Of a DNA stretch of 56,422 nt, positions 6,931-37,952 are shown piece after piece. The notes below the pieces were generated by a model. It was not told the origin of the DNA and did no database searches. It saw only the letters and a list, made by a program, of their open reading frames with translations. The translations under genes and the position numbers were made by a program. The first letter of the stretch is position 1. Every line of letters starts with the position of its first letter. Source of the DNA: an uncultured Pelagibacteraceae bacterium (GTDB taxonomy: Bacteria; Pseudomonadota; Alphaproteobacteria; Pelagibacterales; Pelagibacteraceae); the NCBI GenBank assembly GCA_902553555.1, contig CACDLE010000001.1, forward strand, positions 160,965-217,386. Reading direction: 5' to 3'.

Positions 6931-7012
6931 AATTCTTAATACAAACGAGTCCTATCAAGTCTAAAAAATTATCGTTTGTTAATTAATTAATAAATATAAC
7001 AGAGAGGAAAAT

Positions 7013-8017
7013 ATGAAAAAACTAACAATCGCTTTAGCTTCATTATTAACGATGTTAATCGTTACTTCTGCTCAAGCTAGAGATCAAATTAAAATAGTTG
7101 GTTCTTCAACAGTATTCCCATATGCAACAATTGTTGCAGAAAGATTTGGTTCATCTGGAAAATTTAAGACTCCAGTAATTGAATCTACAGGAACTGGTGG
7201 TGGAGCAAAACTATTCTGCGCAGGAGTTGGTGCAGAACATCCAGATATAACTAATGCTTCTAGAGCTATGAAAGCTAAAGAGTATGCGCTATGTCAAAAA
7301 AATGGTGTTAACGAAATTGTGGAGATTACAGTAGGTAACGATGGTATCACTCTTGCATTTTCTAAAGATCAAAAACCAGTAAACTTTACAAAAAAACAAT
7401 TATGGGCAGCATTAGCAAAAGAAGTTGCTAAAGATGGTAAACTTGTACCAAACCCATATAAAAAGTGGAGCGACATCGATCCTTCATTACCAAATTATGA
7501 TATCAAAATCATGGTTCCACCAGGAACATCTGGAACTAGGGATGCTTGGAACTCATTAGTAATGAAAAAAGGTATTGATGATGCATCAAAAGCTGCTGGT
7601 GCAAAATATAAAGCATTAAGAGAAGACGGTGCTGCAATTGAAGTAGGTGAAAATGACTCACTTATTATTCAAAAATTAGCTGCGGACAAAGAAATGTTTG
7701 GTTTCTTTGGGTTCAGTTATTTCTTAGCTGCAAAAGATAAATTGCAAGCTGCAAGTATCGAAGGTGGTCAACCAAGCTTAAGCTCTATTCAAGACTATAG
7801 CTACGCTGTTGCTAGACCTTTATTCTTCTACGTTAAAAAGGCTCACGTAGGCGTAATTCCTGGTTTACACGAATTCGTAAAAGAATTCACAGGTAAAAAG
7901 TCTATTGGTAAAAAAGGCTACTTAACTGATATCGGTTTAGTTCCATTAGATGGTAAGTTATACAAGACATCTAGAACTAATGCTGTTAAATTAGTAAATA
8001 TGCCGCCTAAAAAGTAA
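7013..8017 (+). CDS. pstS: Periplasmic phosphate-binding protein PstS
   Basis: A protein of 334 residues. A signal peptide (MKKLTIALASLLTMLIVTSA, cleavage after QA at about 22) is followed by the phosphate-binding N-terminal GSSTVFPY at 30-37 and STGTGGG at 59-65, then PPGTSGTRDAW in the middle: all ligand-contact loops of the PstS family. It delivers phosphate to the PstCA channel. The ribosome site AGAGAGGAAA before the ATG is good. A hairpin-plus-T-run just after the stop probably lets pstS be made in excess over the membrane subunits, as expected for a binding protein. PstS also binds arsenate weakly, which is relevant to the arsenic genes at 17-18.5 kb. Confidence 0.96.
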   Translation: MKKLTIALASLLTMLIVTSAQARDQIKIVGSSTVFPYATIVAERFGSSGKFKTPVIESTGTGGGAKLFCAGVGAEHPDITNASRAMKAKEYALCQKNGVNEIVEITVGNDGITLAFSKDQKPVNFTKKQLWAALAKEVAKDGKLVPNPYKKWSDIDPSLPNYDIKIMVPPGTSGTRDAWNSLVMKKGIDDASKAAGAKYKALREDGAAIEVGENDSLIIQKLAADKEMFGFFGFSYFLAAKDKLQAASIEGGQPSLSSIQDYSYAVARPLFFYVKKAHVGVIPGLHEFVKEFTGKKSIGKKGYLTDIGLVPLDGKLYKTSRTNAVKLVNMPPKK

Positions 8018-33540: not shown

Positions 33541-34217
33541 AAGATTTAATTACCATAGGTCTACCAAGTAAAGGTCGATTAAAAGACAAAGCAATATCAT
33601 TTTTTAATAATAGAGGACTTAAGATTTTACAAAGTGAAAAAGCAAGAAATTATTTTGGGACTATTGAAAATACACCCAACATTAAGATTATATTTCTCCA
33701 CGCTAAGGAAATTATTCAAAGATTAGGAGATGGAACTTTAGACATAGGTGTATCCGGGTTAGATCTGCTAAAAGAGTCTGATAAAAATTTACAGAATAAA
33801 ATAAATGTTCAAAAAAAACTTGATTTTGGTAATGCTAACCTGGTAATTGCAGTACCGGACGACTGGATAGACGTACAGACAATTGCTGATCTTGAAGAGG
33901 TATCATTTGATATTAGATCTAAAAGAAATGCCAGATTAAGAGTAGCAACGAAATATCCAAATTTAACTAATGATTTTTTAATTTCCAAAGGCGTTACTCA
34001 ATATAGATTGATACCTAGTCTTGGTGCTACAGAAACTTATCCATTTATAGGTTCATCAGAAATAATTACTGATATTACTTCTACAGGTAAAACTTTAGCT
34101 GATAATAATTTAAGAGTTCTTAAAGATGGATTGATACTTAATTCAAGAGCATGTTTGTTTATTGCAAAAAAAAAGGCTACTAAATTGCAGCCTTTTTTAA
34201 AATCTTTGGGTAGGTGA
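33537..34217 (+). CDS. hisG: ATP phosphoribosyltransferase HisG (short form)
   Basis: A protein of 226 residues, the short HisG that needs HisZ. Visible are GLPSKGRLKDKAI at the N-terminus, DGTLDIGVSGLDLL near 63-76 and the PRPP loop TDITSTGKTLADNNL near 181-195. It performs the first step of histidine synthesis. The regulatory C-terminal domain of the long form is absent, as expected. It ends the tRNA-His/hisS/hisZ/hisG group. The next 138 bases hold short repeats and no gene. Confidence 0.94.
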   Translation: MKDLITIGLPSKGRLKDKAISFFNNRGLKILQSEKARNYFGTIENTPNIKIIFLHAKEIIQRLGDGTLDIGVSGLDLLKESDKNLQNKINVQKKLDFGNANLVIAVPDDWIDVQTIADLEEVSFDIRSKRNARLRVATKYPNLTNDFLISKGVTQYRLIPSLGATETYPFIGSSEIITDITSTGKTLADNNLRVLKDGLILNSRACLFIAKKKATKLQPFLKSLGR

Positions 34218-34221
34218 AATT

Positions 34222-34338
34222 ACATTCGCCTACATTCGCATTCCTAGTGCGCCGATACTCGCTTATTTAAGAACTTCATTGAAAACTTCATTGTGAAAAC
34301 CCTCTAATTTAAAAGCAAGTTAAAAGATGACTTCATTG
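34222..34338 (+). repeat. Cluster of short direct repeats at the left edge of the accessory cassette
   Basis: Two tandem copies of TACATTCGC (34221 and 34231, period 10), then three copies of ACTTCATTG (34273, 34285 and 34330), the first two 12 bases apart. They fill the gap between hisG and the first cassette gene and could be leftovers of an insertion or regulator sites. Confidence 0.55.
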
Positions 34339-34355
34339 AAAGGAGGGGTTAGGTT

Positions 34356-35063
34356 TTGTTTATGGATATAGATATTAATTTTAATTTTTATTCTGACACG
34401 CCTAAAGGAAAGGATCCTGATTCATATAGCGAAACTCTAAGAAAATATCACCAGTTTCTTTGGAGTAAATCTTTGCCAAATGGATCAATTTTTAAATTAG
34501 ATATTAAAACACCTAAAATTTTACATCATAAATCAAATTTAGGAGAGTTTTTTTTGTCAAGCGATTCACTTGCCCACGATTATAGTAAATGGAAAAGAAC
34601 AGAAAATATTATTAAACAAATTCCTAAAAAGGAAATAGAATCTTTCTATAATCTTGGTTGTACTATTGGAGGATACATAATTTTTCCTTCTAATAGAGTT
34701 GATGATAAAATGACAATTAATGGTTCTCGTGGAATAAATAGTAAGATTAAAGATCGATTTGATTTAACACTTGAATGTATAAAAAGATTTTATCTAAATG
34801 AAAATAGTCCATTAACTGAAACTTTAAATAGATATAGGTCTTTTTTTGAACTATTTAACAATTTTGAAGGATATGTAGATTTTTTTCTTCTTCAAGATTT
34901 GGTTAAAGAAAAATACTCTAAAATTAGTTATTTTTTACCATTTAATAATTTTCAAAATTCACCTATTCCAAATGATATAGTAGATTACAAATTGTATAGA
35001 AAAAATATGATTGAATTTATTAATAAAAGAAATCAAAGAATCAAAAAATTTAGAATTATTTGA
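34356..35063 (+). CDS. Protein of unknown function, possibly DUF6994 family
   Basis: A protein of 235 residues with no signal peptide or membrane helix. Striking segments are SDTPKGKDPDSYSETLRKYH, LWSKSLPNG and LGEFFLSSDSLAHDYSKW in the N-terminal half, then GCTIGGYIIFPS and NGSRGIN...RFDLTLECIKRFY. I recall these from a widespread uncharacterised family, probably DUF6994, but cannot verify the name. Start: AGGAGG at 34341-34346 fits the TTG at 34356 (spacer 9) better than the ATG at 34362 (spacer 15). First of three genes placed between hisG and groEL, where they have no obvious metabolic fit. Confidence 0.7.
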   Translation: MFMDIDINFNFYSDTPKGKDPDSYSETLRKYHQFLWSKSLPNGSIFKLDIKTPKILHHKSNLGEFFLSSDSLAHDYSKWKRTENIIKQIPKKEIESFYNLGCTIGGYIIFPSNRVDDKMTINGSRGINSKIKDRFDLTLECIKRFYLNENSPLTETLNRYRSFFELFNNFEGYVDFFLLQDLVKEKYSKISYFLPFNNFQNSPIPNDIVDYKLYRKNMIEFINKRNQRIKKFRII

Positions 35064-35108
35064 AAAAAATTTGAAAGTTAATTTCAGTGAGAAGTGTTAA
35101 GATCAAAT

Positions 35109-35675
35109 ATGGAAAATGGTAAAAAAATTTCAGAAAAAGTTTTAAAGATTAAAGGAATTATTGAAACTAAAGAATACAAAATAAAAGAATTACAAAACTT
35201 TTATAACAATATTAACAATTCAAAAGAAATTTCTGAATATGAAAAGGAATTTTTAACAGAGATAGTTGAAAAAAAAATTAGAGTTGAATTTCCTAGTAAA
35301 GCAAAAAAAATACTTGGTGGTAAAAGTGAAAAAGCAAAAGAATTACTCGGGGAAGTAATGGTTGATTTACTTAAAGAATTTAATTGGTCAAACAATGAGG
35401 TTAAAACAAAGGTTAAAGCAGGCGGAAGCATGATTAGTGGCAAAGAGTTCGTATGTCATTATATTTCTTATAAAAATGACAAGGGTTATTCTACTGCTAT
35501 AGCGTATATTCAAAAAACTCCGGAAGAAGACCCATACTTAGAAGTTCATTATAGAAAAGTAGGAAAAGATTTCGAGCAAGATAAAGAAGAAAAGATATTT
35601 CCAATTCAGTTAAGAGAGGAAGCGGTAACTCTTTATAAAACCTACCTTTCAAAAACTATATTATCAAATGTATGA
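35109..35675 (+). CDS. Protein of unknown function, middle gene of the cassette
   Basis: A soluble protein of 188 residues. The N-terminal half is charged and helical (KIKGIIETKEYKIKELQNFY; YEKEFLTEIVEKKIRVEF), and the C-terminal half looks like mixed strands (FVCHYISYKNDKGYSTAIAY; YLEVHYRKVG). I recognise no family or catalytic motif. The ATG at 35109 is preferred to a GTG at 35094. Its stop overlaps the next gene's start by four bases, so the pair is translationally coupled and probably works together. A substrate-recognition or regulatory partner to the nuclease-like protein is a guess. Confidence 0.65.
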   Translation: MENGKKISEKVLKIKGIIETKEYKIKELQNFYNNINNSKEISEYEKEFLTEIVEKKIRVEFPSKAKKILGGKSEKAKELLGEVMVDLLKEFNWSNNEVKTKVKAGGSMISGKEFVCHYISYKNDKGYSTAIAYIQKTPEEDPYLEVHYRKVGKDFEQDKEEKIFPIQLREEAVTLYKTYLSKTILSNV

Positions 35676-36196
35676 ATGAAACAGACTATAAATCATTGTC
35701 AATTAATGAATTGGTCAAAAAAATTTCTCCATCTTCTCCAGTTATAGAGGAACTAATTAAAAGGGGAGTAATTAGGAACAGGAATTACACAGGTAACATC
35801 GGAGAATATTTTGCTATAGATTTTTTCAACAATTTTAATTCTGAAATTTATACAAAAACAAAAGATTTACCAAAACTTTTAAGATCAGATGAGAATTCTC
35901 AGGATATTGACGCAAAAGATGAAAATGGAAAAGGTTATAGTATTAAAACTATTACTAAACCAACTGGGACTACAGGATCATTTTGGAATCCAGAGTCTAT
36001 TGAAAATAATGAGGAAAAATTTTCTTATTTATTAATTGTAATTTTAGATAAAAGTTTTCAAGTTGATAAAATTTTAGAATTAGATTGGGAAAATTTTATG
36101 AGAAATAAAAGATATAATAAAAGAATGAGAAACTACAATATTTCTGTTACCAATAAATTAAGAGAAGAATTCAAAATTATTTACAAAAAAATTTAG
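35672..36196 (+). CDS. PD-(D/E)XK nuclease-like protein
   Basis: A protein of 174 residues. RNRNYTGNIGEYFAIDFFN near 35-53 gives the Glu of the core first helix. DENSQDIDAKDENGKGYSIKTI near 73-94 gives the acidic residue (IDAKD) and, after a Gly turn, the strand ending in x-I-K. This E...D...xIK pattern is that of restriction-endonuclease-fold proteins in which the ExK glutamate is replaced (here Ser, elsewhere often Gln). A nuclease or DNA-binding role is inferred; loss of the acidic residue may mean weakened activity or a migrated residue. It is coupled to the preceding gene and followed by a terminator shared with groEL. Confidence 0.6.
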   Translation: MNETDYKSLSINELVKKISPSSPVIEELIKRGVIRNRNYTGNIGEYFAIDFFNNFNSEIYTKTKDLPKLLRSDENSQDIDAKDENGKGYSIKTITKPTGTTGSFWNPESIENNEEKFSYLLIVILDKSFQVDKILELDWENFMRNKRYNKRMRNYNISVTNKLREEFKIIYKKI

Positions 36197-36204
36197 TTAA
36201 AAAA

Positions 36205-36232
36205 AACCCCCGAAATTTTCATTCCGAGGGTT
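36205..36232. terminator. Bidirectional terminator between the cassette and groEL
   Basis: ACCCCCGAA...TTCCGAGGG hairpin with one mismatch and a bulge, flanked by an A-run on the left that reads as a T-run for the minus-strand groEL transcript. Confidence 0.7.
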
Positions 36233-36281
36233 CTAATTTTGTTTAGTGTATGTTTTTAGAGTGTTCTAAACGGGAATCGTA

Positions 36282-37952
<1,671 letters not shown>

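Follow-up and report, generated by a model that had tools for sequence, protein, structure and literature searches.

A probable swappable anti-phage restriction cargo, from other SAR11 cells, between hisG and groEL of a SAR11 genome

The three genes of the cassette

The window is the whole stretch of 56,422 nucleotides that was analyzed. Its source genome (G000) belongs to SAR11 and comprises 0.72 Mb in 19 contigs at 63% completeness. The cassette consists of three ORFs on the + strand, in a slot of about two kilobases beside groEL. It is flanked by hisG (+ strand), which ends at 34217, and by groEL (- strand, 36282-37940). With improved start choices, gene 1 spans 34362-35063 (233 aa), gene 2 spans 35109-35675 (188 aa), and gene 3 spans 35672-36196 (174 aa). 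All three start with ATG, and genes 2 and 3 overlap at ATGA. Each has homologs elsewhere and is thus a genuine gene rather than a chance ORF. These results confirm the preliminary description, which had reported three same-strand ORFs between the his genes and groEL, with the last two coupled by ATGA, and had taken them to be accessory genes without a functional tie to their neighbors. No promoter was evident for the cassette, and promoter-like matches were at the level of the shuffled expectation. With no signal above chance, the cassette may be transcribed by read-through from the his genes. Six-frame translation of 34218-34361 gave no clear lost gene.

Gene 1 encodes a DUF6994 protein. It matches PF22507 over positions 1-226 of 226 with 315 bits (gathering cut-off of 27) in a Pfam profile search, which settles what had been listed as a possible member. 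The Pfam authors liken the predicted structure of DUF6994 to type IV restriction enzymes and the HNH superfamily and describe two invariant aspartates and a replaced catalytic histidine in the family (PMC11701544). No departure from the family is evident in the gene 1 sequence; the family's own function is a prediction. Six aligned homologs share the core N..RG....I.DR.DLTLE.I. The DUF6994 gene in the SAR11 genome G059 comes after two nuclease-like ORFs, the second of which has a weak, sub-cut-off Mrr_cat match. Plasmid DUF6994 genes stand near HNH, TIR/caspase, or phosphatase/macro genes, and six viral contigs also carry the family. Gene 1 probably encodes a second, independent nuclease of the HNH/type-IV-like kind. 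It lends partial support to a role in defense, more loosely than gene 3 does.

Gene 2 is a rare orphan whose homologs are also carried by phages. Family searches assigned it to no family. Its homologs were found in SAR11 (97% and 41% identical), SAR116, Ruegeria, Litoreibacter, Nitrosomonadales, and four viral contigs; the hosts include Rhodobacterales. An AlphaFold2 model from 11 sequences was confident (pLDDT of 89.8). It contains helices at residues 9-90, followed by a four-stranded sheet and a C-terminal helix, which form an alpha-beta4-alpha C-terminal domain. Fold searches with the model against PDB and BFVD returned no confident match. VIA Z values of up to 8.8 (Mediator) and 7.3 (CapZ) lie in the range that the tool calls a common arrangement, and both candidates were rejected. 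No constant partner gene was present in the loci examined. One homolog adjoins a GmrSD_N gene in Ruegeria (L041), and another lies near a weak PDDEXK_4 match (L047). Gene 2 encodes an accessory protein that recurs beside nuclease genes and in phages.

In three phage-like IMG/VR contigs (L048-L050), gene 2 homologs stand beside a dCMP-deaminase-like gene. This context suggests that the fold is used by phages.

Gene 3 has no significant match in Pfam, PHROGs, or NCBIfam. It matches PADLOC models for a "type II methyl-directed restriction enzyme" (mREase_II), namely, PDLC03205 (3.6e-35), PDLC03204 (3.1e-25), and PDLC03212 (6.1e-09); the PDLC03205 and PDLC03212 matches cover the protein nearly full length. 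Its earlier label as a PD-(D/E)XK-like protein was thus borne out, with a restriction/defense match added. A plasmid protein with the Eco15I N-terminal fragment matches PDLC03212 at 3.5e-70 and PDLC03205 at 5.9e-12. This Eco15I-like protein falls on the same models as gene 3 and thereby links these models to BisI. A profile was built from gene 3, its relative in G043 (70% identical), and its Exiguobacterium relative (32-34%). The best PDB matches of this profile were Eco15I, at a weak E value of 0.0032, and NhoI, at 0.12; no others fell below an E value of 0.2. Eco15I and NhoI are the two crystallized BisI-family enzymes (PMC11347163). Single-sequence structure prediction gave no usable model of gene 3 (pLDDT of 34.5). 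A scan of viral contigs found no gene 3 relatives.

Gene 3 resembles the BisI family (BisI, Eco15I, and NhoI; 5mC-dependent, type IIM) in its length (150-190 aa in the family), in being solitary, and in having the E/D/K of a PD-(D/E)XK site. Residues E45, D80, and K92 are kept in three sequences of the gene 3 branch. The D and K are common to gene 3 and the Eco15I-like protein, and the E of the latter lies a few alignment columns away. The BisI family has a methyl-pocket dipeptide motif, (H/R)(V/I/T/M), near the C terminus (PMC11347163). It is present in gene 3 as R151-M152, which is invariant in the three sequences and aligns with the His-Val pair of Eco15I. The N-terminal RGVIR motif of Eco15I is also found in gene 3. 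Gene 3 differs from the family in that it is only 23% identical to the Eco15I-like protein. Its branch has S/T-x-K (SIK in gene 3 and TVK in the Exiguobacterium relative) in place of the BisI Q-x-K, and Trp or Tyr at the position of the pocket residue Arg98 of Eco15I. Because this Q and the pocket arginine are lost, we term gene 3 a divergent, BisI-like restriction endonuclease rather than a proven member, and it may recognize something other than 5mC in GCNGC. Modification-dependent restriction is its likely role, as predicted from these motifs and profile matches.

No cytosine-5 methyltransferase (PF00145) was found in G043 or in G000, where one could be missed because the assembly is only 63% complete. 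G000 contains one N6/N4 methyltransferase. It probably corresponds to the GANTC enzyme described in Pelagibacter (PMC9516812). Gene 3 relatives lie near a Dcm-type gene and Vsr on an Exiguobacterium plasmid (L037) and in G282 (L193), and with these neighbors the branch may include conventional restriction enzymes.

The gene 3 homolog in G043 (region L111:7002-8189) is beside tRNA-Ser, inside a glycosyltransferase region. Another possible nuclease-like ORF comes after it (7002-7592).

The hisG-groEL junction and the ends of the insert

The junction between hisG and groEL is a small gene-exchange hotspot. We surveyed 128 other genomes of the genus in which hisG and groEL were both in hand, with duplicates removed. 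The preliminary description had proposed comparing this site among relatives for presence or absence. It is empty in 84 of the 128 genomes (spacing of ≤76 bp), has a spacing of 196 bp in 1, and holds other cargo in 43 (761-4500 bp). None of these 43 occupied sites contains a homolog of gene 1, 2, or 3. The other cargoes include sulfotransferase-, FkbM-, glycosyltransferase-, APS-kinase-, and dehydrogenase-like genes, as read from the sequence without family searches. The site resembles the hypervariable regions of SAR11 in that conserved genes flank a variable cargo, most of it surface-modifying and some of it restriction-like. It differs in being much smaller (0.8-4.5 kb) and in its location; HVR2 lies between the 23S and 5S rRNA genes (PMC2217521).

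In G188 (L085, G188:C1:232000-236500), the hisG-groEL site holds a gene for a D12 adenine methyltransferase along with another methyltransferase-like gene and one more ORF, which lacks a Pfam match and is possibly a restriction enzyme. This cargo is a candidate restriction-modification system in SAR11. In G059 (L127, G059:C12:3500-8200), two DNA-methyltransferase-like genes and further ORFs, read from the sequence only, stand beside groEL as a second cargo of the restriction type. In L055 (G005:C1:140500-147000), the cargo consists of two modules split by a groEL-like terminator and a groEL-end remnant. The second module is an ORF of 1121 aa with the appearance of a fusion between a RecB-type nuclease and a helicase.

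The only terminator-like stem at the cassette lies at 36203-36234. The preliminary description had the cassette end at its own terminator, and this did not hold. The stem has its T-run on the - strand and is homologous to groEL-proximal terminators in L079, L081, L064, L055, and L060, and so it serves groEL as its intrinsic terminator.

The short repeats noted upstream of the cassette are real, with ACTTCATTGAAA present in two copies at 34273 and 34330. Their setting needed correction, as they lie in a noncoding stretch that opens with a remnant resembling the groEL 3' end. This remnant (34220..34244, - strand) follows directly after the hisG stop and marks the 5' junction of the insert. The hisG side of the window matches empty sites and then diverges inside the would-be groEL end. 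Its GGTGAAATTACATTC matches the empty-site allele L013 exactly. In L013 the sequence runs on into groEL; the copy in the window stops once these bases end. A conserved block of 35 bp (34306..34340, + strand) lies in the cassette's 5' leader. It recurs at L039:4626-4660 (91% identical) and at L055:2035-2068 (82%), where it precedes different genes. The 3' end of the shared insert (36191..36290) comprises the groEL terminator and the groEL 3' end. It is 94% identical to L039 over 93 bp, and in L039 it ends in a detached copy of the groEL 3' end with its terminator. Similar remnants are found in L055 and G188. A search for the remnant pattern in viral contigs found none.

Movement of the genes and rival explanations

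The three genes are not inherited together. The preliminary description had regarded them as a candidate undescribed three-gene system and had proposed searching for co-occurring homologs. In that search the homologs did not travel together. A set of 150 relatives includes a single further carrier of each gene, a different genome in every case: G059 for gene 1, G103 for gene 2, and G043 for gene 3. This also rules out core SAR11 genes. In phylum-wide samples of other genomes, 12 of 397 contained gene 3 relatives, 1 of 397 contained gene 2, and 1 of 343 contained DUF6994; apart from G000, no carrier is shared between any two of these lists.

Genes 1 and 2 are found together beside groEL in the single cell AG-325-K07 (L039). 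The window at 34362-35670, from the gene 1 start almost to the gene 2 stop, is 94.3% identical to L039 at the DNA level without gaps, whereas the groEL flanks are only 71.3% identical. The pair therefore moved recently between divergent SAR11 lineages. The third gene in L039 differs from gene 3 and, like it, overlaps the gene 2 end. The cassette is thus horizontally mobile, and its three genes do not stay together. The earlier suggestion of a small defense or DNA-processing module is partly supported, through the gene 3 match and, more loosely, through gene 1; a single three-gene system is not supported.

It is quite unlikely that genes 1 to 3, or 2 and 3, form one obligate multisubunit defense system. 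Their shared strand, the ATGA coupling, the persistence of genes 1 and 2 in L039, and the gene 2 homologs near GmrSD_N and PDDEXK_4 matches would fit such a system. Against it, no second locus with all three genes was found, gene 2 overlaps a different partner in L039, gene 3 is not accompanied by gene 2 in G043, G282, and the Exiguobacterium plasmid, and none of the other gene 2 loci examined includes gene 3. Gene 3 might instead be a conventional type II enzyme of a PvuII-like branch, a restriction-modification relic with its methyltransferase elsewhere or lost. PvuII is the canonical enzyme closest to BisI enzymes (PMC11347163), and the Dcm and Vsr genes near gene 3 relatives in two loci also favor a relic. 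We nevertheless consider it unlikely. No methyltransferase adjoins gene 3, none of the C5 type is in assembled G000 or in G043, an active enzyme without protection would kill the host, and the R-M dipeptide fits a methyl-pocket motif that PvuII lacks.

Alternatively, the cassette could be a small integrative element, bounded by att-like ends, for which the groEL 3' end is the target and mobilization occurs in trans. The groEL 3'-end-like remnants at the distal insert end in the window, L039, L055, and G188 point that way, as does the leader block common to three loci. In addition, mismatch-free copies of TTACATTCTCATACTGGTT are confined to three genomes of the genus, and all of them lie either at most about 1.2 kb from groEL or at the hisG-groEL site. 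These traces are ambiguous across the genus. The remnant is absent from most cargo at the site, and homologous recombination with a donor groEL end plus one old insertion explains the same traces. None of these inserts contains a recombinase, so a site-specific element is possible but unproven, and we judge it distinctly improbable.

The explanation that we favor, with moderate confidence, is that the insert is a horizontally acquired allele of a site at the groEL 3' end where genes are swapped, with gene 3 as a solitary modification-dependent restriction endonuclease, gene 1 as a second nuclease, and gene 2 as an accessory. The insert arrived by transfer between SAR11 (Pelagibacter) lineages, most likely through homologous recombination in the flanking host genes. 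Recombination that carries the donor's groEL end, together with descent from an older insertion, is the simplest account. Gene 3 would be a small PD-(D/E)XK enzyme that cuts incoming DNA with methylated or hydroxymethylated cytosine. The host would be spared; no cytosine-5 methyltransferase was found in its assembled part. A bolder version is very unlikely: that gene 2 founds a new accessory family of bacteria and phages serving interchangeable modification-dependent nucleases (BisI-like here and GmrSD in Ruegeria), and that the groEL 3' end is a dedicated SAR11 docking site for exchanging such restriction modules.

Implications for SAR11

The cassette is probably a swappable restriction cargo, acquired from other SAR11 cells, that would act against phages. 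A 2022 study of marine methylomes described restriction-modification systems as unreported in SAR11 apart from a few common defense systems (PMC9516812). SAR11 DNA is reported to be methylated on adenine at GANTC, and an enzyme that attacks modified cytosine would therefore be harmless to the host. Such an enzyme, if real, predicts the existence of cytosine-modified pelagiphages. SAR11 are the most abundant bacteria in the ocean, and BisI-like and DUF6994 genes in an often-exchanged slot beside groEL mark a place to look for the turnover of their phage defense.
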